A stretch of DNA of 64,000 nucleotides from Phosphitispora fastidiosa. GTDB lineage: Bacteria > Bacillota > Thermincolia > Thermincolales > UBA2595. The DNA is taken from positions 1 to 64,000 of the forward strand of contig NZ_JAHHUL010000004.1 in the NCBI RefSeq assembly GCF_019008365.1, read 5' to 3'. The first letter of the stretch is position 1; the number at the start of each line of letters is the position of its first letter. This document shows positions 123-20,584 of this stretch, in pieces. The notes beneath the pieces were generated by a model. It saw nothing but the letters and a program-made list of their open reading frames with translations. It had not been told where the DNA came from and ran no database searches. A program made the translations under genes and the position numbers.

Positions 123-3100
123 ATTTACATTCCAATATGGTTCTATCTCAACGGATCTCGAATCGGCGCCCCTGTCCCCCAGTTCTTAATTTACATTCCA
201 ATATGGTTCTATCTCAACAATGCTCGGACTTGGGCAGAACCGAAATTCCGGTTAATTTACATTCCAATATGGTTCTATCTCAACTTTTGACTGTCGGCAT
301 AGCAATTGGACGACACATTTATTTACATTCCAATATGGTTCTATCTCAACGAACAAACACGGTGCAATATGCGGCTTATGTGATAAATTTACATTCCAAT
401 ATGGTTCTATCTCAACTAAGTCAGCATGGAATATGTGAGCGATGCGATGGAGATTTACATTCCAATATGGTTCTATCTCAACTCTGGAGTATTCAGAAAA
501 ATACCCAGGGCTCATAGTCATTTACATTCCAATATGGTTCTATCTCAACTCATTTTACGGCCCCGCTCCTGAATTAACTGTTTGATTTACATTCCAATAT
601 GGTTCTATCTCAACTAAGTAAGGCTGTAACACTTGCACTGGCAGTCGGGTATTTACATTCCAATATGGTTCTATCTCAACTGAAAACCTATGTCTGACAG
701 GTATTCACGGTTACATTTACATTCCAATATGGTTCTATCTCAACGCATTTAGCCATATTAGTTTAACCCCCTTTTATTCATTTACATTCCAATATGGTTC
801 TATCTCAACTGCCGTGTGGGAAGAGTATTGGAAACAGCTTATACATTTACATTCCAATATGGTTCTATCTCAACGTAACCGGGGGTGCCAGTTGTGCAGT
901 CGTGGTAACATTTACATTCCAATATGGTTCTATCTCAACCAAAAACGACCACGACTTTGATTCACCTGTTACCTGGATTTACATTCCAATATGGTTCTAT
1001 CTCAACTGTAGCATCTAAAAATTTTATTGAATCAAAAAACACATTTACATTCCAATATGGTTCTATCTCAACCGAGAGACCCAAGCTGCTTCACTGTAGC
1101 TAAACCATATTTACATTCCAATATGGTTCTATCTCAACCTAAACCTTCAAGCATTCCTTTTTTTGAGTATACCCAATTTACATTCCAATATGGTTCTATC
1201 TCAACTCTGCACCTATGATTGATACCCCGTAAACTCCAAGATTTACATTCCAATATGGTTCTATCTCAACATAGCTTTTGGCAGATTGTTTTTTGCCACA
1301 TTCAAATTTACATTCCAATATGGTTCTATCTCAACCATAGCTTTTGGCAGATTGTTTTTTGCCACATTCAAATTTACATTCCAATATGGTTCTATCTCAA
1401 CTATAAGAGGATGTTTCTTTGTCGTAAACATATCCATATTTACATTCCAATATGGTTCTATCTCAACAGAGTACCAGGGGACGGTCCTTTACGTGCGGGA
1501 AACGATTTACATTCCAATATGGTTCTATCTCAACGGAAATATTGGTAAAGGAAGGATGATTATGGCCAGATTTACATTCCAATATGGTTCTATCTCAACC
1601 GAAGCGGCACGGTGCTAAGTTGGCGATAACTGGATTTACATTCCAATATGGTTCTATCTCAACGTATCGGAATACGCTCAAGATGGTAAACCAAGCAAAT
1701 TTACATTCCAATATGGTTCTATCTCAACGAAAGATTTAAGAGAAAAGGTTCAAGCAATGTTAGAATTTACATTCCAATATGGTTCTATCTCAACAAGTGC
1801 GGCATCATACATAAAGTACCGGTTGCACCATTTACATTCCAATATGGTTCTATCTCAACCTGGTAATCCACACCTGGTTCCACTTTTCAAGTCAATTTAC
1901 ATTCCAATATGGTTCTATCTCAACTTATGGGGAGCGTCATTTTTTTGGGCCCAATTCGCATTTACATTCCAATATGGTTCTATCTCAACTACGAGAGGAA
2001 AAAGGCTTAAGTCAGAAAGAATTGGATTTACATTCCAATATGGTTCTATCGCAACGAAAAAGAGAATGTCCTACTGAAAGATTTAGTTAAAATTTACATT
2101 CCAATATGGTTCTATCTCAACATATCAGTTCCGCCAGTTCCTGGCCCAGATGCGGCATTTACATTCCAATATGGTTCTATCTCAACTCCTGTACCACAAA
2201 TACCACTTCGCCATGCTCAACCATTTACATTCCAATATGGTTCTATCTCAACCCAATGGCTGTAAAAATAGCTGTAGCTGAGTAACTCATTTACATTCCA
2301 ATATGGTTCTATCTCAACTTTCATGTTGCAGGCCAGGGTGAATATACAGAAGTGATTTACATTCCAATATGGTTCTATCTCAACCAAAGCGAAGTCCAAC
2401 AACAGACTTGCCATTCTAGATTTACATTCCAATATGGTTCTATCTCAACTGAAGCCGTGGGGGGCTTGGCGATGATGAAGCTAAATTTACATTCCAATAT
2501 GGTTCTATCTCAACAGTTCTGCCGGTTGGTTACGGAGCGCATGGGTGGCAATTTACATTCCAATATGGTTCTATCTCAACGATGAACCGGTGTCCAAAAC
2601 CAAGGATGAATATACCATTTACATTCCAATATGGTTCTATCTCAACTAATTTCTACAGCCAAGTAACTTGCTGTATTAGAGATTTACATTCCAATATGGT
2701 TCTATCTCAACCAAGATCGAGAGAGGCATCAGGCACGCAATTGAAAATTTACATTCCAATATGGTTCTATCTCAACTGATGTAGATGTGGTTTTGGATTG
2801 GTTTCAAAGCCGATTTACATTCCAATATGGTTCTATCTCAACCATCCGGCAGGCAGCACTTCGGGGCGGTCCAATAAATTTACATTCCAATATGGTTCTA
2901 TCTCAACTAAATGGCCAGTATAAAAAAGCGCAAAGGGAAGAAATTTACATTCCAATATGGTTCTATCTCAACTATATAACAGGTTTGTTTTAGCCCTGGT
3001 CTTGCCTTATTTACATTCCAATATGGTTCTATCTCAACTGAGGAATTTGAAAAGATTTATGTATCTTTTTCCGGATTTACATTCCAATATGGTTCTATCT

Positions 3101-5076
3101 CAACCAAAAACCGTACTACTGATAATTTCTTTTGTTGTATAGATTTACATTCCAATATGGTTCTATCTCAACCAATAGAAAATCAATCTACTATTTACGA
3201 ATTAGAAAAATTTACATTCCAATATGGTTCTATCTCAACTTGCCTATACATTTACATATATTTACATGTACTACATTTACATTCCAATATGGTTCTATCT
3301 CAACGGAGCCTATACTGCCAGATGGTAGGCCGGGGAACCATTTACATTCCAATATGGTTCTATCTCAACGGAGCGGTGGGCAGTGATTAAGTTTGAATGG
3401 CTTGGATTTACATTCCAATATGGTTCTATCTCAACGTTTTCCAAGGCCACACAGGTAGCAAAGTGCGGAAATGATTTACATTCCAATATGGTTCTATCTC
3501 AACTTCATATTGTGCATAAGTTGCCCGTGCAATATTTATTTACATTCCAATATGGTTCTATCTCAACGCCTAACGGTGATAACCTTAGCCCTGGCAGAAT
3601 ATGATTTACATTCCAATATGGTTCTATCTCAACAGACCCAGCCGGCAAGCAAAAGGTCTGTCAGATAAGATTTACATTCCAATATGGTTCTATCTCAACA
3701 TCTGTGTTACATCGTAGTAATTGCCCCTATATACATTTACATTCCAATATGGTTCTATCTCAACCTATGGCTATGAGTAGATACCACGTTAATGTTTTCA
3801 ATTTACATTCCAATATGGTTCTATCTCAACTTATGCATTCTTTACGACCCCAATCCCATTCGATAAGATTTACATTCCAATATGGTTCTATCTCAACCGA
3901 TACTGTGATTCTCAAGCTGCCGCTGAATCATATTTACATTCCAATATGGTTCTATCTCAACTGTTCTATGCCGGTTATTAAATCCCTTATCGGCGAATTT
4001 ACATTCCAATATGGTTCTATCTCAACTATGAGCATCCGGAAGATAAAATATTCAATGACAGATTTACATTCCAATATGGTTCTATCTCAACCGAAAAGAG
4101 TTAATAGAATTAGGTATAACATGGAAATTTACATTCCAATATGGTTCTATCTCAACTATATTAGAAATGGCTGGGTTAGTCCAGAAAAAAGGATTTACAT
4201 TCCAATATGGTTCTATCTCAACTTGACAACAGAACAAGTGCGCCTGCTTTTCTTCCAATTTACATTCCAATATGGTTCTATCTCAACGAAGGCTGAGAGA
4301 ATAAAAATAACCCCCTCTTTTTAATTTACATTCCAATATGGTTCTATCTCAACAAAGGACGCGAAAACAAGTTATGGCGCAAGTTTCAAATTTACATTCC
4401 AATATGGTTCTATCTCAACGTGGAACCGCAGGCAGGAGACAGGTAAAAGCGCAGATTTACATTCCAATATGGTTCTATCTCAACTAAGCCCATTGTTCCA
4501 TCTCAACACCTACACCGAAATTTACATTCCAATATGGTTCTATCTCAACGTGCCATCTGTGTATTGCCCGTTTCCTGATAATACATTTACATTCCAATAT
4601 GGTTCTATCTCAACTCTGAATCCACTTACCTCTCTTAGTGTCCTTTTAAATTTACATTCCAATATGGTTCTATCTCAACACAGTAATCTCATAATCTGAA
4701 ACGCTGTCTAACCTATTTACATTCCAATATGGTTCTATCTCAACTAGGTAACCACATGAAACCGATACTCTCCATCAAGCATTTACATTCCAATATGGTT
4801 CTATCTCAACACGAATACTGCTCAGGCATAGAATGTCCTGTAGAGAAAATTTACATTCCAATATGGTTCTATCTCAACGTGAATGTAATGCAAAAATACG
4901 GTACTACGGACCTGATTTACATTCCAATATGGTTCTATCTCAACACAAAGAAAAATACACTGCTATCTATGCACTCGATGATTTACATTCCAATATGGTT
5001 CTATCTCAACGTATGGTGTGCCAGAGCATGAAATCGAAATGATTACATTTACATTCCAATATGGTTCTATCTCAAC
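123..5076 (-). CRISPR. Type I-B CRISPR array, 76 repeats and 75 spacers
   Basis: A 30-bp repeat occurs 76 times with a period of 64 to 68 bp, so spacers are 34 to 38 nt. On the plus strand it begins ATTTACATTCC and ends TCTATCTCAAC. The transcribed strand is inferred to be the minus strand: there the repeat starts GTTGAGATAG and ends GGAATGTAAAT, the 3' end typical of clostridial I-B repeats (8-nt handle ATGTAAAT), the leader and cas2 lie at the high-coordinate end, and the repeat at the other end is decayed. Newest spacers should therefore be near 5046. I counted repeat starts by eye; all look identical except the one at 2026-2055, which has TATCGCAAC instead of TATCTCAAC. Open frames inside the array are translations of the repeat and not genes. 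Confidence 0.99.
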
Positions 5077-5253: not shown

Positions 5254-5547
5254 TTATAAAAAATTACTTGTTGCATCATCTTCCCTTCCCCAAAATTTCT
5301 TATCTAGCCACTTTTCACTCCTGCTCTTAAAAATGATGCATGAATCCATATCAATACGCAAATGTTTTTTCAACTCACCCCTTAGTTTGAATATCTGGGA
5401 TTCACTTAGTTCCCCTTCAAATACCGAATTCTGAATATGTGTCAGATATTTTTTACAGATTTTAAAAACCCGCCGCCAGGTCTTGGCTCCATTTTCCTCA
5501 CTACTTATATCATAAACCAGTATAACATACAAAATAATCACCACCAA
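5254..5547 (-). CDS. cas2: CRISPR-associated endoribonuclease-fold protein Cas2
   Basis: The 97-residue product has the Cas2 signature near its start, a hydrophobic beta strand followed by VYDIS (ILVYDIS), and the family's usual length. Cas2 forms the adaptation complex with Cas1 and inserts new spacers at the leader end of the array. The start overlaps the cas1 stop by 10 bp, so the two are translated together. The first residues (MVVIILYV) are a little long; a GTG or TTG a few codons later could be used. It is the last gene of the operon, directly beside the leader. Confidence 0.95.
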   Translation of the reverse strand: MVVIILYVILVYDISSEENGAKTWRRVFKICKKYLTHIQNSVFEGELSESQIFKLRGELKKHLRIDMDSCIIFKSRSEKWLDKKFWGREDDATSNFL

Positions 5548-6530
5548 ATCTTAAAGCCCTGATAAGGTTTTTCCCTAATAATATGCTTGATGAGCTTGTA
5601 TAACTCCAGCCTAATTAAATACTGATAAGACACTTCACGCCCTAAGTCCCTGTGTTTTATGCTTGTTTTAAGCTTTTGGTCCAGCTCATTCATAATTAAT
5701 TTTAATGCTTGTGGCTTTAATCTCAGGTAATATTGATCTTCATCAAAAGACTTTTGGTTGACCATGTTCTTATTTAATAAAGAGAAAATCAGCCTGTCTG
5801 CTATCAATGGCTTAAAAATCTCGGCAATATCTAGACTTAGCGAAAATCGTTTTGTACTTGGCTCATGTAAAAAACTGACGGTTGGATTTAACTGGGTTTT
5901 ATAAATTTCATTTAAAACTTTAGTATACACAAGGGAATTTGTAAAAGAAATCAAGGAATTGATCATATTGTCCGGAGGATGCTTTACTCGTTTCTTAAAA
6001 TCAATTTCTTGATTGATAATGATTCCCCATGTTTCATAATAAGTTTTTCTTATATTTCCCTCAACGCCCATTAGTTCCTCAATACTTTTACAGTTTTGAA
6101 TACTGTCACGGAGAGTTTCTATTCTTTCCATATGATTTTCAAGAGCCTTACCTCGTTGATTATAATATCTGACATTTCTGTAGATATTGTAAGATGCAGC
6201 TTCAATAATAGCTTTAGCCAATTCTAACCGCTTTTGTTGGTTTTGATGATGATTAACTTGGCAAACTAAAACCTTCCCCGACACCAAACTCTCTCTTGGG
6301 GTAAAACTGCCAAAATAATAATCGTAATAATTATAAAAATGAATACAAATATTATTTCTGGCCAGGAAATCAAGTAGCTTTGTGTTGACAGTAATCTCTC
6401 CCAAAATATAAAGTTCGTCAACTCGTTCAATGGGAATATCCTTTTTCTGACCAGTCTCTACAATGAACTGTAAAGTATTGTCGTTCCGTTTTAGGGTTCC
6501 GCTTGAAAAAATATAATAAGCTTGTTTCAT
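5538..6530 (-). CDS. cas1: CRISPR-associated integrase Cas1
   Basis: The 330-residue product is of normal Cas1 length. Visible landmarks are the N-terminal beta domain (residues 1-75), the catalytic glutamate in GVEGNIRKTYYE, the histidine in FLHEPSTKRFSLSLDIAEIF and the acidic residues just after it. Together these form the metal site that integrates pre-spacers into the array. ATGA overlap with cas4 upstream and a 10-bp overlap with cas2 downstream show a tightly coupled adaptation block cas4-cas1-cas2. No damage is seen. Confidence 0.97.
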   Translation of the reverse strand: MKQAYYIFSSGTLKRNDNTLQFIVETGQKKDIPIERVDELYILGEITVNTKLLDFLARNNICIHFYNYYDYYFGSFTPRESLVSGKVLVCQVNHHQNQQKRLELAKAIIEAASYNIYRNVRYYNQRGKALENHMERIETLRDSIQNCKSIEELMGVEGNIRKTYYETWGIIINQEIDFKKRVKHPPDNMINSLISFTNSLVYTKVLNEIYKTQLNPTVSFLHEPSTKRFSLSLDIAEIFKPLIADRLIFSLLNKNMVNQKSFDEDQYYLRLKPQALKLIMNELDQKLKTSIKHRDLGREVSYQYLIRLELYKLIKHIIREKPYQGFKIWW

Positions 6531-7036
6531 AATTCACCTGCCCCAATATAACACATATCAAAAAATGCACATTTTCGACAGACGGCCTTCTTTGGATAAT
6601 CATTAGGTGGAGATTCTTTTTTTAAAACTTTTTCTATTTCCTCTAAATTCCCTTCGATCTCAAAGATGTCTCCGTCATCCCATAACACCTTTTGCTTTTT
6701 TTTCAGCAGCGGGTAATCAATTACTGCCTCGTTGACGGCAACGCCCATTTCCCTTAAATAGTACATATAATACTTGACCTGGGCAATAGCCATCTGATTC
6801 ATCTTTGTTGTTTTTTTGATTTCGTGTATAACCCCTTTGTCAATAAAATCAATATTGATAACGCCATCCACCATCAAGTGTTTATCTTTTCTGGAATAAC
6901 TGCCCTCATCAATAAATCGCCCAATCAACACATTCTCATTGTCCTGTTCCATATCAATATTGTAGCTGGAATACCAGAGCTTACGTTTACATAAGTGAAA
7001 ATAGGCATACATCATCCCGTTGATTTTCCGTTTCAT
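6527..7036 (-). CDS. cas4: CRISPR-associated RecB-like exonuclease Cas4
   Basis: The 169-residue product has the Cas4 layout: an early cysteine in HLCKRKLWY, a RecB-type nuclease core (GVINIDFIDKG then HEIKKTTKM, supplying the catalytic D, E and K), and a C-terminal cysteine cluster VCRKCAFFDMC that, with the first cysteine, holds a 4Fe-4S cluster. Cas4 trims pre-spacers and sets PAM and orientation during acquisition. A GTG three codons upstream (7045) lies inside the GTAGGTG ribosome binding site, so the ATG at 7036 is preferred. The gene overlaps cas1 by 4 bp. Confidence 0.95.
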   Translation of the reverse strand: MKRKINGMMYAYFHLCKRKLWYSSYNIDMEQDNENVLIGRFIDEGSYSRKDKHLMVDGVINIDFIDKGVIHEIKKTTKMNQMAIAQVKYYMYYLREMGVAVNEAVIDYPLLKKKQKVLWDDGDIFEIEGNLEEIEKVLKKESPPNDYPKKAVCRKCAFFDMCYIGAGEL

Positions 7037-7045
7037 GCTATTCAC

Positions 7046-9316
7046 CTACATACAATTATCAAATTCAAATTCACCCTTGATAAATCCAACGCCCGATAAA
7101 CTCATTTCATCAAAGTCGTAAACATTCATGCTCCTGAAAATACCGCTATGAGCATAAATAATTTCAGTCTTCCCCTTGTCAACTCTTTTGTCATTACGGT
7201 AGCTCAGGCTCACACTAACTGTGTAATCCTGAATTTCATTTTTCAGTTTTATCTTATCCTGTTTTGACAACCCGCTGTCCTTTTTTAATTTGGATTGCCA
7301 TTCATCCAGCTTGTTGTCCACACTAAGCTGTTCATAGACTGAATCCGGCATCAGCGTAATACTTAAAATTTCCCTGAACTTTTTTTGAACCCTCTCTTTT
7401 GACTTATCAAAGGGTTTTATTGTTTTCAACACTTTTAGCTTTTCAGTTATATCATTGTAATACCGGCTTTTTTTAAGCTGCTCATTTTTCTCTTCGTCAT
7501 AAATAGAATCAACGTATGCAAACTTGTCTTTTTCGTCAAATAATTTACCTTCATACTGCTGCAGCATATCCCATGAAACATCGAAGAGAATCCGGTCATA
7601 AATACCTTGATTATCACCTGTCTGCCTACCGTTCTTGGTATTATATACAAACACATTTGGTTCAACAGGTACAATCCGGCCCCGTCGATTGCACCTTCCA
7701 AGGCGCTGCAGCAAGCTGTCCCCAGTACACATCTCCGTATACAACACATCAAAATCAATGTCCAGGCTTGCTTCAACAATCTGGGTCGTTATCCAGATTC
7801 CTGTTTCATTGCTTTTGGAGAAATTCATGATTTCCTCTTCCAGTTTCTGGCGGTGCCGCTTTATAAATAAAGCATGCAAAAGTTTTGCATTTTCGCTTTT
7901 TAATGCTTCATACAATTCCTGCGCCTTTTTAACTGTGTTAACAATCACCAGCACCTTTTTATTTTTACCGTCTCTTTTGATGGTATTTAGGTCTATTTCC
8001 CCGTCACAAAGTTTCATAAAATGTCTTGGCGGACTTTCAGGGAAAAGCAGGGGGGATTTTTCATAAACAATTCCCTCTCTTTCCATTAAATCCATAATAA
8101 AAGCAGGCATCGTAGCAGTGATAATGGCAAACTGCCCACCAGCATCCTGAATCAGTTTCAGGCCATACACTAAAGCTGCAATAATCTCACTGCTATACAT
8201 TTGAATTTCGTCAATGATAACCCTAGAATAAGCTAGAGTAGCCAGCATCTGTTCCCCGCCGTTATATTTAAAAACAAAGGGAAACAACTGGTCAACAGTA
8301 CATACTGTGAGAGGACTGGCAAAAAGACGTGATTGGCTGTAGAAAACCATCGGGTCAATATCTTCATCTTCACCCGAAATATCAATATACTTAGTTAACG
8401 AGTCCGAATGAAGCAAACGTACATTTCTATAACCATATTCACTGGCTATCCGGTCATAAATGGCATTAATTGATACCTTTAGGGGCAGAGTATAAAAGCC
8501 CTTACCGTCGCCTATCCACAAAAGAGCCCCTTCTGTTTTACCAATTCCGGTTGAGGCCCTGACCACCAGATTCCTACCTCGATTCTTCAGCATATATTCT
8601 TGCACCTGGTTCAATTTCGTCTTAAATTCGTTGGCAACCCTGTTTCGGATATTATCCGGTAAGTTTATACCGCCGTCATTGTGCAATATTTCAAAGGTGT
8701 TCTTCTCCAAACCACTGCTGGCAGCATAATCAAGCCTGTTCAGCATTCCCTTAATTATTGCATAAACCAGCCACTGTTCCTCTTCTACTTTTTCAGGAAC
8801 AGGCATATTGCGCATATTGCTTTTTGAAGGCATTAGATTATCCAACAGTGTAAACTCCAGTTGTTTTACATTCTTTGCCAGATCTTTTGCAATGATTTCA
8901 TCAATAAGTTTCTTATGGCTTTTAAATTCATATACCAACTCTCTGTCATGATGATACAGTACTGCCATCCGGATGGCTTTAGTAATAACTTCCCCAAATA
9001 TATTGTTTAATTCCTGAACATTCATGAATGCTAAACTTAGTACGCCATGAGGTATCTGCTCTATTCCCTTTTCTCTGTACAAATCTTTTAAAACATCCAC
9101 CAGCGGTACTTTGGGTTTCATTAAATTATAAAACCTTGTATTAATCTTGCCTATATCATGATACAGTAAGGCAATTTTTATTGCCTCTGCTATCCTGCTG
9201 TCTTTGTTTACAAAGGCATCAGGATAGCAGTTTAAAAATCTCTTGAAATGGATTAACAAATCCCTGGTATGCATTTCAATGGTCGTCTTGCCATCTGATT
9301 TAGCATGAAACTCCAT
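7046..9316 (-). CDS. cas3: CRISPR-associated nuclease-helicase Cas3
   Basis: The 756-residue product is a full HD-helicase fusion. The N-terminal HD nuclease shows LYHDIGK near residue 52 and HHD near residue 120. The superfamily 2 helicase follows: Walker A as STGIGKTEGALLW, the DEAH-like box as IIDEIQ, SAT-type motif III as ITATMP and motif VI as QRLGRCNRRGR. Cas3 is recruited by target-bound Cascade and degrades the displaced strand. A ribosome binding site (TTAGGAGGTT) precedes the ATG. It lies between cas5 and cas4. All key motifs are intact, so interference should be functional. Confidence 0.97.
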   Translation of the reverse strand: MEFHAKSDGKTTIEMHTRDLLIHFKRFLNCYPDAFVNKDSRIAEAIKIALLYHDIGKINTRFYNLMKPKVPLVDVLKDLYREKGIEQIPHGVLSLAFMNVQELNNIFGEVITKAIRMAVLYHHDRELVYEFKSHKKLIDEIIAKDLAKNVKQLEFTLLDNLMPSKSNMRNMPVPEKVEEEQWLVYAIIKGMLNRLDYAASSGLEKNTFEILHNDGGINLPDNIRNRVANEFKTKLNQVQEYMLKNRGRNLVVRASTGIGKTEGALLWIGDGKGFYTLPLKVSINAIYDRIASEYGYRNVRLLHSDSLTKYIDISGEDEDIDPMVFYSQSRLFASPLTVCTVDQLFPFVFKYNGGEQMLATLAYSRVIIDEIQMYSSEIIAALVYGLKLIQDAGGQFAIITATMPAFIMDLMEREGIVYEKSPLLFPESPPRHFMKLCDGEIDLNTIKRDGKNKKVLVIVNTVKKAQELYEALKSENAKLLHALFIKRHRQKLEEEIMNFSKSNETGIWITTQIVEASLDIDFDVLYTEMCTGDSLLQRLGRCNRRGRIVPVEPNVFVYNTKNGRQTGDNQGIYDRILFDVSWDMLQQYEGKLFDEKDKFAYVDSIYDEEKNEQLKKSRYYNDITEKLKVLKTIKPFDKSKERVQKKFREILSITLMPDSVYEQLSVDNKLDEWQSKLKKDSGLSKQDKIKLKNEIQDYTVSVSLSYRNDKRVDKGKTEIIYAHSGIFRSMNVYDFDEMSLSGVGFIKGEFEFDNCM

Positions 9317-9327
9317 CGGATAACCTC

Positions 9328-10104
9328 CTAAACGATCGGCGCAACATCTCCCTCGCTGTCAACGGGCAATATCTGTTCAAAAAGGCTCCCCTTTGCCGCA
9401 TAACATGCTCTGATAGGCTTGTCCCACCTTCTTATACCCGTTTTATTGTCAATTTGAAACACTTTATTCAGCTTGAAAAAGGTTCCTTTGGGTCTTAAAT
9501 CATAATCCCACTTATCTAAGTAGGATTCCGGAATATAAATATCATTTTCCAATACATCATCATACTCTTTTTCCGTAATTTCAACCATTGAAACGCCATC
9601 GATACACAGCAAATCCTCATACCTCCCCAGGGAAAGAAAAGTTTTTGGAAAATTGATACCGTTATAAACTTCCTCAATTTTATCTTGGTCATCAGGGCAG
9701 ATATGTAAAACTAGCTTTAATCCTATCAACGTCTCTACATAGCCAGTGCCTCTGCTGACACCGTATTTTTTCCAATCCTCTCTACCTTTTGACAGGACAG
9801 TTTTATCCAAAGAATACAATCCAAAATTTTTACCATCATCTTCTATAACCATGTTATGGCGGCTGAGGTCATTCTTATCAAAGGCAAGGAACTCGTAACG
9901 GGTATACAAATCATTTACCACAGATTCATAGCTTCCCTGCACCGCAACCTGCATGGGAACATATTCCCTGTATCCACACGCCGTATGTACCATCCCGATA
10001 ACCGTCGAATAGGGGGGTAGGGGAAAGGACTCTTTAATTTGAAAGCTGGAAGGTTTGCGGAAATTTGCCGTACTTGCGTAAGCCCTAATTTTTATTGCCT
10101 TCAC
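9328..10104 (-). CDS. cas5: Cascade subunit Cas5 (I-B type)
   Basis: The 258-residue product begins with a typical Cas5 RAMP beta strand and the phrase FPLPPYSTVIGMVHTACGY, the conserved N-terminal region of Cas5b/Cas5t proteins. Cas5 caps the 5' handle of the crRNA in Cascade. The start is a GTG lying inside the end of cas7 (20-bp overlap), so translation is coupled. It ends 11 bp before cas3. Assignment to the Cst/Tneap-like branch rests on its neighbours Cst1 and Cst2. Confidence 0.93.
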   Translation of the reverse strand: MKAIKIRAYASTANFRKPSSFQIKESFPLPPYSTVIGMVHTACGYREYVPMQVAVQGSYESVVNDLYTRYEFLAFDKNDLSRHNMVIEDDGKNFGLYSLDKTVLSKGREDWKKYGVSRGTGYVETLIGLKLVLHICPDDQDKIEEVYNGINFPKTFLSLGRYEDLLCIDGVSMVEITEKEYDDVLENDIYIPESYLDKWDYDLRPKGTFFKLNKVFQIDNKTGIRRWDKPIRACYAAKGSLFEQILPVDSEGDVAPIV

Positions 10105-10984
10105 TGTAATACCCCTCCACTTTTCCTTTCAGTTCATCAAACAAGCTGTTAATATCAACGGCTACCAGATCATCTTTTATTTTCGTAGAGTTGTCTAATA
10201 TCCCGTCCAGCAAACCTACTAAAGTATTTTCTCTAACATCCTCATCCTTAAACATTTCCTTAATGATGCCCGTATCCAGACTGCATTTATTAAGCCTCAG
10301 CCGGCCTTCAAAATAAGGATTTTTTCTGTTGTAAACACCGCCTATGGCGAAAACCGGTGCCAAATTCTCCCGGCGGCCTTTGATGTCCCGGTAAAGGAAT
10401 TGCACTGTTTTTAATAGTTTTACAACCCTTGCGGCCTTTTCAGCATCAGGTATCTCTTCCGTAACCGTTCCCGTCTGGTCCGTTTCTTTTCCCACCCGGT
10501 CCAAGTCAATGGTAATGGTATAGGCGTAAAAGGATTGATGAATCTCACTTTGCGAAATGCTGTTATCTAGGTTTTTTCCTCTTGATGATAGCGCCATATT
10601 GGTCAGGTAATCCATCTCCGCATGATAATTCTCAAGGGCAATGGCATGACTTAGACGCACTATCGCTGAACGGCTGTTGCCAGATTCACCTTTTGCTGTT
10701 TTCATGTAACCAAATAAATCAATCTCAGGATAATCTGATATCTTTGCGCTGGGTGCAAACTGAACAACTTTTTTTGCACCGCCCCCGGCTCCTTCCACTG
10801 GCGTATTATCCCAACCCAACTGATTGATTATGTTATAACGCAAAGCCTGCCTTGAAATATAGCTGTAAACCCCGCCGTCACCCCGGGAAAGTTTTTTTAA
10901 TACCTGAATGTTCCCAAACCCCTCACCATAGTTTCCACTCTGCGCCTCAAATATGATTGATAATGTTAATCCCTTTAATCTCAT
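10085..10984 (-). CDS. cas7: Cascade backbone subunit Cas7 (Cst2/DevR family)
   Basis: The 299-residue product matches the Cas7/Cst2/DevR pattern: an N-terminal strand (LTLSIIFEAQSGNYGEG), the segment ISRQALRYNIINQLGW near residues 44-59, a glycine-rich loop, then SHAIALENYHAEMDYLTN. Several copies of Cas7 coat the spacer part of the crRNA in Cascade. The start overlaps the cas8 stop by one base (TAATG). It overlaps cas5 by 20 bp, which fits a co-translated Cascade block. Confidence 0.95.
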   Translation of the reverse strand: MRLKGLTLSIIFEAQSGNYGEGFGNIQVLKKLSRGDGGVYSYISRQALRYNIINQLGWDNTPVEGAGGGAKKVVQFAPSAKISDYPEIDLFGYMKTAKGESGNSRSAIVRLSHAIALENYHAEMDYLTNMALSSRGKNLDNSISQSEIHQSFYAYTITIDLDRVGKETDQTGTVTEEIPDAEKAARVVKLLKTVQFLYRDIKGRRENLAPVFAIGGVYNRKNPYFEGRLRLNKCSLDTGIIKEMFKDEDVRENTLVGLLDGILDNSTKIKDDLVAVDINSLFDELKGKVEGYYSEGNKN

Positions 10985-12678
10985 TATAATTGAGCCTCCT
11001 TAATGTTCTTATCCGAGCCATTATTTTTCTGTTTGTCTTTCGTGTATTCATCCGCCGTACCCTTAAGACCTAGAACATAAGCATATCCCAAACTCTTAAA
11101 CGTTTCCTCGTCATTTATCATTTTAATAAACAAGTTGGGTACAGGTTCCCCCATACCTATATACATACGGGTGGCAATATTTAAAAATCCGCTGCAATCT
11201 CCCACTTGAAGTGCATTTAACAGTTGATAGGCAAACCCTCTAAGTTTATTATCCGTGCTGTCCTTTTGGGTTTCATTTTTATCTTTATTCTCAAACTTTC
11301 CCCTAAAACGTATTCCGGCCTGTGAAATCGCAAAGATCATATTGTCAGTTACCATCGCCCTTCCCCCTTTTCCATATAATTTTGAAGCCAATTGAACTTT
11401 TAGCAAAGACCACACATATCCCGCATATTCTCCTTCAGAAAATCCCCTGCGCAGGGCCATATTAATCAGCCCATACTGGGAATATCCGTTGATTAGATTA
11501 TGAAGAGTCTCTTCAAAAATATATAAACGTTCCTTGTTACGCAGGGTTAAATAAATTCCCGTTAATTTCTCCAGTTCTCTGCCACATTCTTTTATGACTA
11601 TTAGGTGGGTCTTAGACAGCAGGTTAATGTTATAACGCCCATCCTGCCGTTTCATAATCACTTGTATATTGCTTAATTCATATTTTTGCTTTTGCCGCAA
11701 CTGTTCGTTGACCATGCGGGAGATGAGGCGGTATGTCAGCCTGCCAATATTCTCCTCTTTAACCGCGTCATCAATATCCCCCTTAGCACCAATATTGTCA
11801 TCCTGCAACAATTTAATGCTTTCACTGTTATTGATGAAAACACAGTCATTGCCATAATCCGCATAGGAAAATCCTAACGGTGCACAGGAATAAATAAAAG
11901 CGCAAAGAGGACACAAATAAGAGTCCGGTCTAAAGTTCCAGAAATAAGAGTATTTTCTTTTATGGTCCACACCCATATCATGAAGCCACGACAACCCTGT
12001 TGAAAAGGAGGCCGGAACAGATATTCCGCATTCAATACAATAATCTTTAGCCCTCGGCGACTTGTTAACCCAATCCTTGACTGGTTTGATGAATACTGTT
12101 CGGTGGGTGTCAATCATATCTTTCTTGCTATTTTGGGGGTATAAAAAGGAAATGTTGTTCCAAAGTTTTGATACTTTAGTGTAAGCAATATCTTTAAAAC
12201 AAAATATCTCAGGGTAGTTTATTATATAATCTGTTACTTCAATAGCCTTCTTTATTTTTTCTTTATCGTCTTCTATGTCTTTTATTGACTTCAATGCCTC
12301 TAATGGGTCGTAATGGTCAGCCTTTTGTTTAGCAATTGCATAACCTGATTTGTAACTATTTCTTTGGAGATATGTTTTAAGATCCTCCAGTAACTTTTTC
12401 AGGTCTTCGCTATCTATTGAACTATTATTAAGCTTGTCATTCATATTAACGATGCTTTTATACACTGTTCCGTTCTGAAACTTTTTCCGTAAGGCCTCGT
12501 AATACATAAAAGCCAGGTCAATGTTTTCATCTAGGAACAAATCCCTGCTGATATATAGTTCGCTGCCTTTTATTTCGCAATAATGGCTGCAGTCTCCACT
12601 TTCCAGCACCTGAATAAAGCCCAAAATCCCTGCATTATACAAAAAGTTCTGTAGCCCTACTCTAAAAAATTCATCCAT
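10984..12678 (-). CDS. cas8: Cascade large subunit Cas8 (Cst1-type, CxxC...CxxC)
   Basis: The 564-residue product begins MDEFFRVGLQNFLYNAGILG, the start typical of Cst1 proteins. It carries paired cysteine motifs CIECG (near residue 216) and CPLC (near residue 257), the zinc-finger-like signature after which the CXXC-CXXC Cst1 family is named. Cas8 recognises the PAM and holds the R-loop open for Cas3. The cst1-cst2-cas5 order is that of the Tneap variant grouped with type I-B. The gene ends by overlapping cas7 and follows cas6 by 12 bp. Confidence 0.93.
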   Translation of the reverse strand: MDEFFRVGLQNFLYNAGILGFIQVLESGDCSHYCEIKGSELYISRDLFLDENIDLAFMYYEALRKKFQNGTVYKSIVNMNDKLNNSSIDSEDLKKLLEDLKTYLQRNSYKSGYAIAKQKADHYDPLEALKSIKDIEDDKEKIKKAIEVTDYIINYPEIFCFKDIAYTKVSKLWNNISFLYPQNSKKDMIDTHRTVFIKPVKDWVNKSPRAKDYCIECGISVPASFSTGLSWLHDMGVDHKRKYSYFWNFRPDSYLCPLCAFIYSCAPLGFSYADYGNDCVFINNSESIKLLQDDNIGAKGDIDDAVKEENIGRLTYRLISRMVNEQLRQKQKYELSNIQVIMKRQDGRYNINLLSKTHLIVIKECGRELEKLTGIYLTLRNKERLYIFEETLHNLINGYSQYGLINMALRRGFSEGEYAGYVWSLLKVQLASKLYGKGGRAMVTDNMIFAISQAGIRFRGKFENKDKNETQKDSTDNKLRGFAYQLLNALQVGDCSGFLNIATRMYIGMGEPVPNLFIKMINDEETFKSLGYAYVLGLKGTADEYTKDKQKNNGSDKNIKEAQL

Positions 12679-12690
12679 CCTTTCACCTCC

Positions 12691-13413
12691 CTACATCAAA
12701 TTAAACATGCCAAACCCCTCACCCCTTCGAGAACCTATCCCGCTGTCAAACAGGTGTTTCAGAAGCCGCTTGTCCCCTTGAAGCCTGAATTTGCCAAGGC
12801 TTGCCGGAATCCTTGAACCAAAAGCCTTAACCAGCACAAATTTACCTGAAACCGTTTCAATGACTAAATTATCAACCATTGACCCTGTTAGAAGTTCATG
12901 GCCTTCAATGTCATTTTTAATAATAGTTTTTAAGCAGGGCAGAAATTGTTCATCAGAATAAATGTAATAGTTGTCTTTGTTTGCTTCCCTTAAATGTTCC
13001 CGTACAACCAGCGGACTGACGAAATAAATGAATAATTCTTCTGTATTGATAGCTGTTTCATTTTCCAAATAAATCCTTAATAGTTTTAAAACATTGTGGT
13101 GTTTTATCGGAAAGGCTATGTTTTTCTGTCTGAGCAAGGAGTTGTAAAGCTTTACAAAAATCCCATAATCTGCTGTTGAAAAACGCATTTCAAATTCTGG
13201 TTTGTCCAATAAAACGCAGTCTTCCGTATACTTTGCCTGACTGAGATGAGTAGAAAAAGTAAATTGCTTTGTTTTTGGTTCTTTCCTATACATTTCCTGA
13301 AAAAAGTCCTTATCATTTTCCTCCAGGGATTTTTTTATAAAGCTTAGAAGCATTCTGCGGTAATCAAGATCAAGTGTGCAATTTTGCAACTCATATAGAA
13401 GCTTCATTCTCAT
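12691..13413 (-). CDS. cas6: crRNA-processing endoribonuclease Cas6
   Basis: The 240-residue product has the length and C-terminal glycine-rich loop of Cas6 (GIGSRRGEGFGMF), used in binding repeat RNA. Cas6 cuts within each repeat to leave the 8-nt ATGTAAAT handle. It is the first gene of the operon. AAAGGGGGG lies 7 bases before the ATG at 13413, and a sigma-A-like promoter sits just upstream (13441-13469). The catalytic histidine, which varies within the family, cannot be assigned by eye. Confidence 0.93.
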   Translation of the reverse strand: MRMKLLYELQNCTLDLDYRRMLLSFIKKSLEENDKDFFQEMYRKEPKTKQFTFSTHLSQAKYTEDCVLLDKPEFEMRFSTADYGIFVKLYNSLLRQKNIAFPIKHHNVLKLLRIYLENETAINTEELFIYFVSPLVVREHLREANKDNYYIYSDEQFLPCLKTIIKNDIEGHELLTGSMVDNLVIETVSGKFVLVKAFGSRIPASLGKFRLQGDKRLLKHLFDSGIGSRRGEGFGMFNLM

Positions 13414-13440: not shown

Positions 13441-13469
13441 ATTATATGTCTCCAAAAAACACTTTTGAA
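13441..13469 (-). promoter_or_regulatory. Putative cas operon promoter (P2)
   Basis: On the minus strand TTCAAA (13469-13464) and a perfect TATAAT (13446-13441) are separated by 17 bp. The predicted start near 13434 gives a leader of about 20 nt with the cas6 ribosome binding site. It lies between the degenerate mini-array and cas6, where a crRNA-guided repressor would be expected to act. Confidence 0.6.
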
Positions 13470-13508: not shown

Positions 13509-13590
13509 CCGACTCTTCCAATATGGTTCAATTAGAACAAAATTCTAAAATCAAAATATTTTTTACATTCCATTATGGTATTTAATATCA
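13509..13590 (-). ncRNA. Degenerate repeat-spacer-repeat unit upstream of cas6 (CreR/CreA-like)
   Basis: Two CRISPR-repeat-like 30-mers flank a 22-nt AT-rich pseudo-spacer (13539-13560). In crRNA orientation the first (13590-13561) matches 19 of 30 repeat positions, mostly in the 3' half, and ends GGAATGTAAAA, so the Cas6 handle is nearly intact. The second (13538-13509) also matches 19 of 30, with GAACCATATTGGAA kept exactly and its 3' end lost. A consensus-like promoter reads into the unit. Known CreR and CreA RNAs have this layout and guide Cascade to a promoter instead of to foreign DNA. That function is inferred. A decayed remnant of an old array is the alternative. Confidence 0.6.
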
Positions 13591-13617
13591 ATATATTTGG
13601 TAATTATTGTTGGAATC

Positions 13618-13646
13618 ATTGTATCTGGTAATTTTTAGCTTGTCAA
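13618..13646 (-). promoter_or_regulatory. Strong sigma-A-like promoter reading into the mini-array (P1)
   Basis: On the minus strand a perfect TTGACA (13646-13641) and TACAAT (13623-13618) are separated by exactly 17 bp. Transcription would start near 13611, about 20 nt before the first degenerate repeat. The 13-mer holding the -35 box (TTTTTATTGACAA) occurs again at 13725-13713 within an insertion-sequence-like end, so the promoter may derive from mobile DNA. Confidence 0.65.
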
Positions 13647-13710: not shown

Positions 13711-13777
13711 GATTGTCAATAAAAAAGTGAGCCAGTCGCCAGAAAAAAATCAAGCCACTATCGCCAGAATTAGGTTC
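13711..13777 (-). mobile_element. Insertion-sequence-like terminal remnant (IS21-like)
   Basis: On the minus strand two spaced copies of a CTGGCGA...TGG motif are followed by T-runs (near 13765 and 13740), then ATTGACAATCG. Repeated terminal motifs of this kind resemble the ends of IS21-family elements. The group II intron reading frame is cut at this point, so the remnant probably marks the insertion or deletion joint. No transposase remains. The family assignment is tentative. Confidence 0.35.
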
Positions 13778-14064
13778 TGACCGTTTTGTTTGAGATATGG
13801 TAGAAGTTCATCTACTCCCATCCCATCTATACCGCCTGCCCCTTTATTGGACTTTACTCTTTTATATGCCTTATTCATATTGTCCCTGTCCAATATCTTC
13901 TCTAGCAGCCTGTCTGTCGACAAATATGCGTTGGTGACGTTGTTTTTAGTTATCCTTGATGAAGTACACGCTTCTGCATATCCTTCCTGTTCCGCAGGTA
14001 CTTTTTGCAGACAGCCTTCTACTTGAAGTTTTCTGTGTTTTATTCCATCCTCGGTAACATTCAT
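13750..14064 (-). pseudogene. Truncated group II intron reverse transcriptase (N-terminal fragment)
   Basis: The reading frame begins at the usual place in intron domain IV after AGGAGG. Its first 95 or so residues match the N-terminus of LtrA-type maturases (DRDNMNKAYKRVKSNKGAGG, then IDGMGVDEL). The frame then leaves the family and stops within about ten codons at the insertion-sequence-like joint. All catalytic RT, maturase and endonuclease parts are missing, so the protein cannot work. Confidence 0.85.
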
Positions 14065-14471
14065 TGCCTGTCAACCTCCTAAAGTTCAGCCCTTCCCACC
14101 AACCGTCGACTGTCCGTGGTAATATGGCTTCTGCTGACTTCTCACGATAAATCTTGTTTCAACCGTGCTTCATACGTTTTATTTCCACACGTCCGCGAGA
14201 CCTCCCCGGGTAAGAACGCAGTCTTTCCTTCCATCTATCTGCCACATTTACACCGTAGGCTTCCGGATAGTTTCGGGCTTCAGTTTGTTATGCAACCTTA
14301 CCCAACCTACATATGCCTTATGTGATTTCTGTTCGTCAGACCAGAAGTTTGCCTCCTGCTTCCTCCAGATTCCACCTCGCGATGGACACCCTTGCCCTTG
14401 GCTATGTGCTTGGCACTATCAACCCGCACTCGGGACTTTCACCCGTTAGACTGCGCCCATGCCGGGCACAC
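13770..14471 (-). mobile_element. Group II intron, 5' fragment
   Basis: The minus strand from 14471 reads GTGTGCCCGGCATGGGC, a standard bacterial group II intron 5' end, followed by domain I sequences such as GGGTGAAAGTCCCGAGTG, and then the maturase start at 14064. The 3' part with domains V and VI is absent. The first intron base comes four bases after the U-tract of an intrinsic terminator (14476-14517). This is the target type of group IIC introns. Confidence 0.85.
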
Positions 14472-14664: not shown

Positions 14665-15840
14665 TTATATCAGTTGCTTTAGCAATTCCGAGCAAGTTAC
14701 CGCCAATCCATCAGTGTCCATAATATTAGTTGCTCTCGGCTCTGACATAATACTATGTAGTAATTCAACAATGTTTATATTACTGTAATAGGCTGAAACA
14801 GCGACCATCTTATCTATAAACGGGTCAGTAATACTCTCAATTACTTTATCAGTTTGAATAATAATATCTTTGTCACTCGATTTTTCGCATGCTCTGAAAC
14901 TATCACCCAAAAACAAATCAGGATGCAGTCGTCTAAAGCCTTGAGTTGGCATATAACTCTCAAGGAATAATTGCCTGATAACAAGTTGAAGAGAAAGGTC
15001 AATCTCACGCCCCAGAACAATGTCTTTTACAGTTTCAATAATATGCAAATGATTTAGTGCCAAAAAGAGAGCTTCGCAAACATCACAATAGGTATATTCT
15101 CTATCTAAATCGTTCACAACGACAAAAATTGTTTCAATCGCAAAACTGTCACAATAACACTCATCAAACAGTTTTATATTTTTTGATATAAAGTTGTTTA
15201 TTTCAGAATCTGTCACCGATGGAGAATTATTTTTCAAAAGTGTAAGCACTTGTTCTTTGACAAATAGAAATCTACTATCTTTTACTATTTCACATTTAAG
15301 CAGTACATGGGCAAATTCATGTAAAATTATATATATTTGTTGCAAAGCAGCAAAAGAAATTGCCTTGCTCACGATACTCTTATCTAAATTGTCAGAAAAA
15401 TTATATTTTAAAGAAGTGTATGTTCGGATAATTTTCAAAGTTTCGGCTATTAGACCGACACTAAAACATTCATCCGCTGTAAGTTTGTTTAAATATTTTA
15501 CGTAATCGCATTCTGACGCATTGTGAAAATACAGCAAATTCATCGCATTCAGTGTTTCAATCAAATATTGGTCAATAAAAACATCTACGCTCGTTATTAC
15601 ATCAATTAAACCAACAGTTGGTTTCAATGTGAATTGAACTCTTGTGTTTTTAGAAAAAGTATCAATTAACCAAAAACTTACATCGAAACCACTCCGATTA
15701 AAGAGCTTACTTAAAACTTCCTCTAAAATATCCGCTAAAGGTGCAATCCCATAAAAATCATCAGACTGTGTCAGCTTTCTAATACCTTTTGTCCGGAACT
15801 TACTACCCGTGAAATCATCATAAGGGATTTTACCTGACAC
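14665..15840 (-). CDS. HExxH metalloprotease-like protein
   Basis: The 391-residue product is not a family I can name. It has a zinc-protease motif, HEFAH at residues 174-178 inside a hydrophobic helix (YIILHEFAHVLL), and about 50 residues later FDECYCDSFAIE, which could supply the third zinc ligand in the way E/D-rich second motifs do. The N-terminal 160 residues and C-terminal 150 residues show no recognisable domain, and no signal peptide or membrane segment is evident. The start is GTG at 15840 after AGGAGG. It is the last of four minus-strand genes and follows the small hydrophobic protein by 18 bp, so the two probably act together. Peptidase activity is inferred from the motif only. Confidence 0.75.
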   Translation of the reverse strand: MSGKIPYDDFTGSKFRTKGIRKLTQSDDFYGIAPLADILEEVLSKLFNRSGFDVSFWLIDTFSKNTRVQFTLKPTVGLIDVITSVDVFIDQYLIETLNAMNLLYFHNASECDYVKYLNKLTADECFSVGLIAETLKIIRTYTSLKYNFSDNLDKSIVSKAISFAALQQIYIILHEFAHVLLKCEIVKDSRFLFVKEQVLTLLKNNSPSVTDSEINNFISKNIKLFDECYCDSFAIETIFVVVNDLDREYTYCDVCEALFLALNHLHIIETVKDIVLGREIDLSLQLVIRQLFLESYMPTQGFRRLHPDLFLGDSFRACEKSSDKDIIIQTDKVIESITDPFIDKMVAVSAYYSNINIVELLHSIMSEPRATNIMDTDGLAVTCSELLKQLI

Positions 15841-15858
15841 GCTAATAAACCTCCTGTG

Positions 15859-16233
15859 TTAGCTTTTGTTCGCGATCTTCACAACTTCCGAAAGCAGTTC
15901 CTTGCATGTCTTATCATTAATCGATTTTGTGACTTTTTCGATCGCCGTCAATGAGTCCTTTATGCTGAAACCAACTAAATCCAGTTCAAACTCGACATTG
16001 GTATCTGAGTTTTTGAATTTTATGTACAATCGCTTTGATTTTAATAATGCAACAACAACTCCAGATATAGCGCCTATCATTGCTGGCGAGATGGAGATTA
16101 TGAATTCAAAGAACTCTTTTCCACCAACCAATCCTTCTGAAAACCGAATTTCCGAAGAATCTGGGAATTGACTTAGGAATTTATCAAACTGACCCCGGTC
16201 ATCTTTTTGGAAAAACACTGTGAATGTACTCAT
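15859..16233 (-). CDS. Small protein with one hydrophobic segment, EACC1-like
   Basis: The 124-residue product starts at the ATG at 16233, six bases after GGGAGGAT; an upstream ATG at 16290 lacks such a site. After about 45 polar residues comes a hydrophobic stretch (FIISISPAMIGAISGVVVAL), then short beta strands (LYIKFKN, VEFELDL) and a helix. This plan recalls the EACC1 components found beside effectors in bacterial conflict systems, but the likeness is judged by eye and not certain. It sits between the HEPN-like gene (95 bp upstream) and the protease-like gene (18 bp downstream) and could link the protease to a membrane or a sensor. Confidence 0.6.
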   Translation of the reverse strand: MSTFTVFFQKDDRGQFDKFLSQFPDSSEIRFSEGLVGGKEFFEFIISISPAMIGAISGVVVALLKSKRLYIKFKNSDTNVEFELDLVGFSIKDSLTAIEKVTKSINDKTCKELLSEVVKIANKS

Positions 16234-16327
16234 AACATCCTCCCATTTAAATGTAATACTTATTAGGTGTTCTTGGAGATACGAAGGCACATCGACAAAC
16301 TATTTCCAGCAGTTCAATGGCCTGCAT

Positions 16328-17215
16328 TTATAAGATATCATTAAAGAAGAACGGAAGAACCTGCTCCGGTGTAGCCACCTTATGATAATCATATATCGTG
16401 TCAGTTAATTCGTTAAGATACTTGCATATAAACTCCTCAATAGTCATTCCTTGTAATCTGGCTATTTCGATCAATGAGTTTACGCTCAGACATTTATTCC
16501 ATTCCCGAAGCTGATAACCCATTTTTGACTTAAAAGATTTAGAATGGTAGTAGCTCACGAGACACCGGCTTATGATATCACTTGAACCAAGGTACCAAGC
16601 GGCTATACTCTGTGACCAACTATATATATCGTCCTCTGTTGCAGATTCACACATTTGATTCACTGCTCGATCAAGCAGAGCAAACACTTTTCTGGATTCG
16701 CTGAATAATAACCTGTATGCTTCTTTATAGTCAAATAAGGCCTCAGAATTTGTTCGTAAATGCGGAAATACAGCCCAATTTTGACTATGGGTTCCGATGC
16801 CCTGATTAACTTTATACTGATTAAATGATAACATTGGTTTATTATGGCAAAAGCAACTTCTTATTTCCCTTATAGCATTGATAAACACTTTGGTATTTCT
16901 GACTTCATTCTCGTTGATTACTTGACAGTCTTTCATTATTTCCAGCAGAGATCTTGTTGGAGCCATATCACAACAAGGTTTCAGATGAAAATTTTGATAA
17001 TAGTCACTTGACCTTAAAAAGTAAGGCATGCAATCCATTAGAAGAGCGTACAAATTTGTTATATCATACCAGAAGCTCATTTCGAGGGGAGCGTGTTGGG
17101 GAATTGGTTTAGGTGCAAATGCATCAGCCAAAAATAGACTTGTATTCCGATGCCCACATTGATTATTCCAGCTAGCAACTTTCACGGATAGAATACTAGT
17201 GATAGTGGTGTTCAT
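16328..17215 (-). CDS. HEPN-like protein with an RxxxxH motif
   Basis: The 295-residue product is largely helical and unfamiliar as a whole. Residues 115-124 read IREIRSCFCH. This fits the R-x4-6-H signature of HEPN ribonucleases, with arginine 119 and histidine 124, although the usual asparagine after the arginine is serine here. HEPN proteins commonly act as RNA-cutting effectors in toxin and antiphage systems. The start is the ATG at 17215; the GTG at 17230 is part of the ribosome binding site GTGGGAGG. The gene begins 15 bp after the stop of the large ATPase gene, so the two are almost surely one unit. HEPN identity is an inference from the motif and context. Confidence 0.6.
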   Translation of the reverse strand: MNTTITSILSVKVASWNNQCGHRNTSLFLADAFAPKPIPQHAPLEMSFWYDITNLYALLMDCMPYFLRSSDYYQNFHLKPCCDMAPTRSLLEIMKDCQVINENEVRNTKVFINAIREIRSCFCHNKPMLSFNQYKVNQGIGTHSQNWAVFPHLRTNSEALFDYKEAYRLLFSESRKVFALLDRAVNQMCESATEDDIYSWSQSIAAWYLGSSDIISRCLVSYYHSKSFKSKMGYQLREWNKCLSVNSLIEIARLQGMTIEEFICKYLNELTDTIYDYHKVATPEQVLPFFFNDIL

Positions 17216-17230
17216 CACAGTGCCTCCCAC

Positions 17231-20200: not shown

Positions 20201-20584
20201 GAGGCCATCAAACAAGATGCGACCATAGGAGCGTAAAAGATGAGGGATCGTCTCCAAAAAAACCTGAGTTGTTTCCAACTGGTCAATAGGATCAATTACA
20301 TCTGGCTCCATGCCAGATAGACGAACAATAGAAAGTTCACGCCGGTTTAATTGAATTGCCCTGCTGTCCGAAACAACAGTAATATCAGTACTACGCCGAT
20401 TAAAATTGTCAAACTGGAATGCCAAATCCTTTTGACGTAATGTTGTAAAAACACAGCTCCATGACTGTGAAAATAAGAGTTCGGGGTTGCGTGCATTAAA
20501 ATTATCACCGAGAAAAAGAATTGTAGGTTCTGCCACCATTTGGTGTAAGATACCGGATAGAACGTCCAAATCATTTTCGTACAT
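17231..20584 (-). CDS. Large P-loop ATPase with an N-terminal degenerate SIR2-like domain
   Basis: The product has 1117 residues from the ATG at 20584, which follows GGGAGGTG; the open frame continues 40 codons upstream but without a ribosome binding site. Residues 18-185 follow the SIR2-like plan: a first strand PTILFLGDNFN, then WSCVFTTLRQKDL where active SIR2-like enzymes have TTNYD, then IVRLSGMEPD where they have a HG pair. The key asparagine, aspartate and histidine seem lost. A P-loop ATPase follows, with Walker A GQACSGKT (316-323) and Walker B TLIVWDT (391-397). The C-terminal 600 residues are helical and repeat-like. The plan recalls SIR2-STAND antiphage sensors such as Avs5. The gene heads the four-gene cluster. 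Confidence 0.7.
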   Translation of the reverse strand: MYENDLDVLSGILHQMVAEPTILFLGDNFNARNPELLFSQSWSCVFTTLRQKDLAFQFDNFNRRSTDITVVSDSRAIQLNRRELSIVRLSGMEPDVIDPIDQLETTQVFLETIPHLLRSYGRILFDGLTSGDILRALCPQLSKIGRVKSVYFFGLPSELVQDPYILRLIEKGIAVSIPTSLMQLLSNLSGELTEFEYTGVEAEDEIGPTIFIRKSPYKMTSPIDHELLLNIKGFARLLNYEEVELADSFPKEEIVQRFQAFLQSSTVGFPKWYAYRESNGFHMKRYFEEGLYRDTIKILEDAASKDRNAKPIMLRGQACSGKTNALCALAYRIFHEGLYPVVYIPESDVNFNVSVEKNDSGEIEKKKSSAFTSLEQLLREIESKTDNPTPTLIVWDTSFRTKGDISRATDLLLALRDAGRQVQIVCTGYDAINADENGNTYKKYSCIDVDVSLRKTEDYDEIALMRNLLVEKGGFRPEDAARMMKYYSASDSFFASLYLFRELHKDLKQRLRRENEGRIDDISEELNRISKAEAEERLNSVMTIQMRKVMEKLGWQISSAEESVCEQSNELKRHLIELICCIALCTIYKERLPISIALRLLGTMDTTSSKVFGAILNNSLLVYSSSEDEEPLVYIRSELEASLIMDEYGKSRMEIIFLLLDAISPNGDSAEIYMMQNLLRLIGPNNRNSSLSLWTPDCREFEKLIDKLREFRENQHSDNLILQELTLTREICGSGKWLTNEERIQRLRAAVELAEKTIDQLDLVKIKNYAANLFVEWALLCIRLSDQDSSFSRRGMYQDISRRLSIVISYFPQNGFAYSACLWAGLRYVEVIENQEEKMELLQSLFVLRDILENEVVDENIDSNVLGELDGQMDSMELSEERFERSIQSGKSYGIFYKVRKLIGRGIDKLDFNNPLGKQETFLNKCKQIIALLKNTEYQSIVTNDAGCIYTLINVKWLYYSGQPIIPAIENQCIGLSQEKWLELYSACKQYLDNLSKVRSPRIVYLQALSAAHLPKYREECQLLFDELRKSVSYEKRTLHVISDENGKPQLFNGRLSGKYNTYHNRGYIRLEGEGFKTPIYFRADKLGRDVNSLRENMQFYNLSVATSLTGFQVCKL

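Follow-up and report, generated by a model that had tools for sequence, protein, structure and literature searches.

A degenerate repeat unit upstream of a type I-B cas operon

The stretch of DNA analysed here, 64 kb in length and referred to as the window, harbours a complete type I-B (Cas8b1) operon with the gene order cas6-cas8b-cas7-cas5-cas3-cas4-cas1-cas2, which extends from 13413 to 5254 on the minus strand (Table 1) and encodes an apparently intact Cas6 together with its cognate effector. Array and cas operon are transcribed on the same strand. The array repeat is identical in 75 of its 76 copies, and a second array with the same repeat is located on contig C5 of this genome. Array spacers measure 33-39 nt (n = 98 counted).

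Table 1. Features of the type I-B locus and of the unit upstream of cas6 (window coordinates)
Feature	Coordinates	Strand	Remarks
cas6, first gene of the operon	12691..13413	-	TIGR01877, PF01881
cas8b1	10984..12678	-	TIGR01908
cas7 (Cst2/DevR)	10085..10984	-	TIGR02585
cas5b	9328..10104	-	TIGR01895
cas3 (HD nuclease + helicase)	7046..9316	-	TIGR01587, TIGR01596
cas4	6527..7045	-	PF01930
cas1b	5538..6530	-	TIGR03641
cas2	5254..5547	-	PF09827
CRISPR array, 76 repeats GTTGAGATAGAACCATATTGGAATGTAAAT	123..5076	-	downstream of the cas operon
Predicted unit promoter TTGACA-17-TACAAT	13618..13646	-	consensus scan, 11/12 matches
Target PAM CCA	13598..13600	-	directly precedes the target
Protospacer-like target AATATATTGATATTAAA	13581..13597	-	matches guide nt 1-5, 7-11, 13-15, 17
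psi-repeat 1 (psiR1) TGATATTAAATACCATAATGGAATGTAAAA	13590-13561	-	degenerate copy of the array repeat
Pseudo-spacer, 22 nt, AATATTTTGATTTTAGAATTTT	13560-13539	-	between psiR1 and psiR2
psi-repeat 2 (psiR2) GTTCTAATTGAACCATATTGGAAGAGTCGG	13538-13509	-	degenerate copy of the array repeat
Predicted mature CreR-like RNA, 52 nt (8-nt handle + 22-nt guide + 22-nt 3' handle)	13517..13568	-	assumes that Cas6 cuts each repeat 8 nt ahead of its end
Second promoter-like site TTCAAA-17-TATAAT, between unit and cas6	13441..13469	-	10/12

Close to the cas genes, upstream of cas6, two degenerate local copies of the array repeat enclose a pseudo-spacer of 22 nt in the order psiR1, pseudo-spacer, psiR2 and in the direction of the array and the cas operon. 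This arrangement, which had been predicted, is confirmed by the coordinates and by exact repeat matches: psiR1 has the 11-mer TGGAATGTAAA (repeat nt 19-29) in common with the array repeat and psiR2 the 14-mer GAACCATATTGGAA (repeat nt 10-23). As anticipated, psiR1 retains the 3' handle side and psiR2 the centre. Outside the array, no other exact match to the repeat in the 64-kb window reaches their length, and 100 Markov shuffles of the upstream region did not yield an equally good pair (p of about 0.01, the floor of the test). The last part of a CRISPR repeat gives rise to the 5' handle held by Cas5, and the first and central part is bound by Cas6. The expected 8-nt 5' handle, AUGUAAAA, is kept in psiR1 at 13568-13561, where the original prediction had placed it, and psiR2 retains the 5' and central part but is devoid of the last 8 nt, the Cas5-binding part. 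The same division of labour is documented for CreA genes, in which psiR1 keeps the last 8 nt and psiR2 loses them (PMC8501985, PMC9458426).

With a spacer of 22 instead of 33-39 nt and two degenerate repeats, the unit is not an ordinary CRISPR array. A search against Rfam returned no match for it. An explanation based on RNA structure was dropped, as the predicted folds of the unit and of the repeats were no better than those of shuffled sequences. The genome contains a second type I-B system (L093, G000:C3:222000-240000) with the repeat GTTTTCAGCTTACCTATAAGGAATTGAAAC; the region upstream of its cas6 yielded no comparable unit. In the window, the unit is closely preceded by a group II intron remnant (13750-14159) consisting of an N-terminal reverse-transcriptase fragment (13750-14064) and a stretch assigned to Rfam RF01998 (14089-14159).

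A PAM-flanked target beside the predicted promoter

The unit was expected to have its own promoter, and a consensus scan indeed located a near-perfect candidate ahead of psiR1. It is probably the leader promoter of the cas operon as well; from this promoter to cas6 no terminator-like site was found. The search for a short PAM-flanked seed match near the unit, proposed at the outset, also succeeded. Some 20 bases past the -10 box, a CCA-flanked target with partial complementarity to the guide lies in the promoter region of the operon for the cognate Cas proteins, the second promoter-like site ahead of cas6 being a caveat to this assignment. There is overlap between the target and the 5' half of psiR1, and this may be part of the reason for the divergence of that half from the repeat. 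Guide and target have the same orientation. The guide begins with AATATTTTGATTTTA and the target stretch at 13597-13583 reads AATATATTGATATTA; differences occur at nt 6, 12 and 16 and past nt 17. The 15-mer pattern AATATNTTGATNTTA, with N at positions 6 and 12, is present at exactly two sites in the 4.09-Mb genome, namely guide and target.

In type I effectors, each sixth base of the guide is flipped out and unpaired. Judged from the alignment, the mismatches at positions 6 and 12 are those that type I crRNAs leave unpaired. In line with this pattern, nt 1-5 and 7-11 of the H. hubeiense CreA are needed for repression and nt 6 and 12 are dispensable (PMC8501985, PMC9458426). Only one further site in the genome (G000:C16:93343-93356) follows CCN and agrees with guide nt 1-5 and 7-11. 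It is preceded by CCA, matches guide nt 1-11 throughout and breaks at nt 15, and an EamA transporter gene is located directly upstream. This match is probably due to chance and possibly a second binding site.

The CCA motif fits what can be deduced about the PAM of the system, although our own estimate is derived from two protospacers. Convincing foreign protospacers of the array came from one plasmid family and one same-genus genome: an Enterococcus plasmid (33/36 matches) and the same-genus genome (31/36) carry foreign protospacers, both after CCT. Phage records contained no convincing protospacer for the array spacers. The PAM of the Clostridioides difficile type I-B system is CCW or, more broadly, YCN (PMC8406132). 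A different picture is seen in a resident, mobile-element-like region of the genome (L185, G000:C4:176000-190000), in which three protospacers match spacers from the two arrays of the genome itself (33/34, 32/35 and 27/35 positions) and are preceded by CTA, CTG and CTC, i.e. CTN rather than CCN. This looks like tolerance of a resident element via altered PAMs.

Recurrence of the arrangement in related cas loci

A genome scan with Cas6 did not find any relative because the protein is too divergent; in the Cas6 tree it forms a long, isolated branch. Two genomes of the same genus (G001, G002) gave no match to Cas6, Cas8b or Cas7, and among the family genomes searched no close relative carrying the system was found. 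An alignment search with Cas7 yielded about 95 related cas loci, of which 94 contain cas6 and 93 have enough upstream sequence. These were scanned for psi-repeats with each locus's own repeat as query. The comparison with related genomes, suggested as a check on the unit, had a mixed outcome: the same arrangement recurs with other seeds, but the searches gave no close relative with which the unit itself could be aligned. What is conserved across loci is the design of the unit rather than its sequence. Among the related loci, L164, L142 and L171 come from the named isolates Rummeliibacillus suwonensis, Blautia schinkii and Lactobacillus sp. LL6.

Three loci (L079, L080 and L082) have the same layout as the window. 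Here, psiR1, a guide of 18-22 nt and psiR2 lie directly upstream of cas6, and each guide, different in sequence, matches a site ahead of psiR1 that is flanked by CCA or CCG and located on the opposite strand. In total, nine forward units were identified. Compared with shuffled guides, their combined Fisher p amounts to 7e-11 when no PAM is required and to 5e-13 when CCN is, values that do not come from independent trials as the loci share ancestry. Both strands considered, and with a psiR1 score cut-off chosen once four units were already known, a psiR1-like element plus a guide with a CCN-flanked seed match beside the cas promoter is present in 25 of 93 loci and in none of 465 Markov-shuffled regions. 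At psiR1-like sites, a CC-flanked match was found in 21 of 66 cases, whereas the chance rate in the real upstream sequences is 4e-4 per position. About 20 different seeds are represented, and in the Cas6 tree the units come from several separate branches. Although they pass the joint test, L109 and L122 do not have a convincing psiR2 and are doubtful members. L086 and L090 were taken to be genuine array remnants and excluded. Both have array-type repeats about 300 nt upstream of cas6 with spacers of normal length, in contrast to the short-guide units; L090 represents the end of a multi-repeat array and L086 a remnant.

When no PAM was imposed, the best targets were preceded by CCA (17), CCT (7), CCG (1) and AAT (1), i.e. 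by CCN in 25 of 26 cases, and the AAT exception is an array repeat. Over the 25 units, nt 1-5 and 7-10 are paired in 24-25 units and nt 11 in 22; nt 13-15 follow with 22-25, nt 16 with 20 and nt 17 with 18 units. Pairing drops to 8 units at nt 6, 8 at nt 12 and 5 at nt 18 and is at background beyond. Selection of the units made use of nt 1-5, 7-11 and partly 13-17, so that the gaps at nt 6 and 12, the end at nt 18 and the PAM are features not selected on.

The target adjoins a predicted cas promoter in the majority of units. It is located 7-20 bases downstream of the predicted -10 box in the window, L079, L082, L096, L106, L113, L123 and L164 and immediately upstream of the -35 box in, for instance, L131, L139, L140, L149, L154 and L170. 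Such a position fits the need of cas-operon repression and speaks against a toxin target. Units divergent to cas6 were observed in L117, L131, L139, L140, L149, L154, L155 and L170, mostly from Lachnospiraceae. They have a TATAAT -10-like box (TATACT in L170) in place of the 5' half of psiR1, and transcription may begin within the repeat. Their target usually adjoins the -35 box of the predicted cas promoter.

Proposed self-repression by a short natural guide

We propose that the unit encodes a CreR-type guide by which the type I-B Cascade represses its own operon without cutting, and assign this reading a probability of about 0.86. From the observed anatomy, complementarity, PAM, uniqueness in the genome and recurrence in relatives we infer the following course of transcription, processing, binding, repression and relief. 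A transcript initiated at 13646-13618 would run through psiR1, guide and psiR2 into cas6. Given the retained handle and the published processing of CreA, Cas6 would cut both degenerate repeats and release a crRNA-like RNA of 52 nt (13568-13517). Cascade loaded with this RNA would bind the CCA-flanked sequence at 13597-13581 via bases 1-5, 7-11, 13-15 and 17 and block transcription of unit and operon. Given a short guide and partial pairing, Cas3 would presumably not be engaged and the chromosome would stay uncut, as suggested by spacer-length work in two other I-B systems. By analogy with CreR elsewhere, for which this is established, repression might ease when Cascade is tied up by array crRNAs or anti-CRISPR proteins. 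Such self-repression would set the amount of Cas proteins per cell and the response to anti-CRISPR proteins, and it bears on whether native I-B systems are expressed sufficiently for tool use. A comparable principle exists in type II systems, where a long-form tracrRNA enables Cas9 to repress its own operon via a natural, partly matching guide. This auto-repression, mentioned in PMC13131331, shares with our proposal an effector that represses its own operon, but RNA and effector are different.

CreR, reportedly introduced by Liu et al. in 2023 (Cell Host Microbe), are cas-regulating mini-CRISPR RNAs of types I-B, I-E and V-A. According to reviews, they act in these three types through partial complementarity to cas promoters (PMC12737573, PMC13131331, PMC12948488). 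Measured against these accounts, the unit in the window shares a crRNA-like element in the cas locus, a guide partly complementary to the cas promoter, an intact cognate effector and the lack of a toxin; its 22-nt guide and a target overlapping psiR1 may set it apart. CreR being known and short guides having precedent, the unit is placed within the CreR kind. The haloarchaeal I-B CreA (PMC8501985, PMC9458426) is similar in its two degenerate repeats, with the last 8 nt in psiR1 and not in psiR2, in the seed of nt 1-5 and 7-11 beside a PAM and in a target within the promoter that drives the unit. In contrast, creT is missing from the window, pairing continues through nt 13-17 and the PAM is CCA, not TTC. 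In Acinetobacter, the I-F CreA has a pseudo-spacer of 20 nt, of which 17 are paired, with mismatches including positions 6 and 18; it represses a toxin RNA and belongs to another subtype with another type of repeat (PMC10097628).

The short spacer had been regarded as a novelty, a view that the 20-nt pseudo-spacer of the Acinetobacter CreA does not permit (PMC10097628). What may be new is the consistency of short guides in the Cas8b1 group, where the guide measures 17-25 nt in units whose second repeat is clear. In the I-B system of H. hispanica, repression by guides of 21-24 nt is strong, whereas interference and priming are lost (PMC10989794). In Parageobacillus thermoglucosidasius, repression without interference occurs at 26 nt or less, the switch being at 26 nt (PMC10551041). 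In both cases engineered guides of about 20-26 nt repress without cutting in the presence of active Cas3; they are man-made and fully complementary, whereas the guide in the window is natural and partly complementary. By analogy with these systems, the natural guides of 17-25 nt are on the repression side of the length switch. It is conceivable, at odds slightly below even, that the self-repressing guides of Cas8b1 I-B systems represent one evolved design: a guide of 17-25 nt that pairs in 5-bp blocks (nt 1-5, 7-11 and 13-17) and then stops, uses the length switch known to engineers and, in its leader form, is cut from the cas mRNA. If so, natural selection would have hit on the engineers' switch, by which Cascade represses without recruiting Cas3, and in the operon-leader form each cas transcript would yield one copy of its own repressor guide. 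With pairing conserved over 17 nt and guides this short, it becomes possible to test whether guide length is a natural safety catch between repressing and cutting.

The main weak point of the proposal is the second promoter-like site at 13469-13441, which could drive cas6 alone from outside the blocked region. The guide would then repress 13646-13618, limit only the unit itself and hardly affect the operon. We consider this unlikely, as about two sites of this quality (1.9) are expected by chance in this AT-rich stretch, L079, L080 and L082 with the same layout have no promoter-like site from unit to cas6, and the targets of other units lie at the predicted cas6-proximal promoter.

The other alternatives have a much smaller probability. 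Anatomy and seed rule are those of CreA, and the CCA-flanked 11/11 seed match on contig C16 could be read as the address of a toxin RNA repressed by the guide, so that loss of Cascade would harm the cell. This is highly improbable. The repressed promoter leads straight into psiR1 and leaves no room for a separate toxin gene, sequence inspection between promoter and psiR1 revealed no separate small gene, and upstream there is the group II intron remnant. The C16 site closely follows the EamA transporter gene, its match to the guide is interrupted at nt 15, and in related loci the targets are at predicted cas promoters. A CreTA module was rejected on the grounds that no toxin gene is present and that the target is part of the leader directly ahead of psiR1. 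Just as little speaks for a functionless decayed remnant of a CRISPR array or a local duplication. It is true that stray degenerate repeats occur in the neighbourhood of arrays, that array-like repeats with normal spacers lie upstream of cas6 in L086 and L090, and that guide and target are co-oriented in the window, as in a short direct duplication. A remnant, however, would not be expected to have a 22-nt guide in place of 33-39 nt, repeats that each retain just the half needed for their role, or a target that is flanked by a PAM and mismatched at positions 6 and 12. Almost all related loci have guide and target in inverted orientation to each other, an arrangement that direct duplication cannot explain. 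With respect to the original prediction, the PAM-flanked promoter target and the recurrence in related cas loci support the proposal that the CreR-type guide holds the cas operon at low expression; the alternative branch, dependence of the cell on Cascade, lost its footing as neither a toxin gene nor a toxin promoter was found.

Further upstream of the unit, at 14665-20704, the window contains four adjacent genes on the minus strand. Three of them gave no Pfam or PADLOC match, and one encodes a protein of 1157 amino acids with a weak match to nSTAND NTPases. A DNA cytosine methylase gene is located nearby at 21664-22545, and the four-gene group is possibly an undescribed defence cluster.
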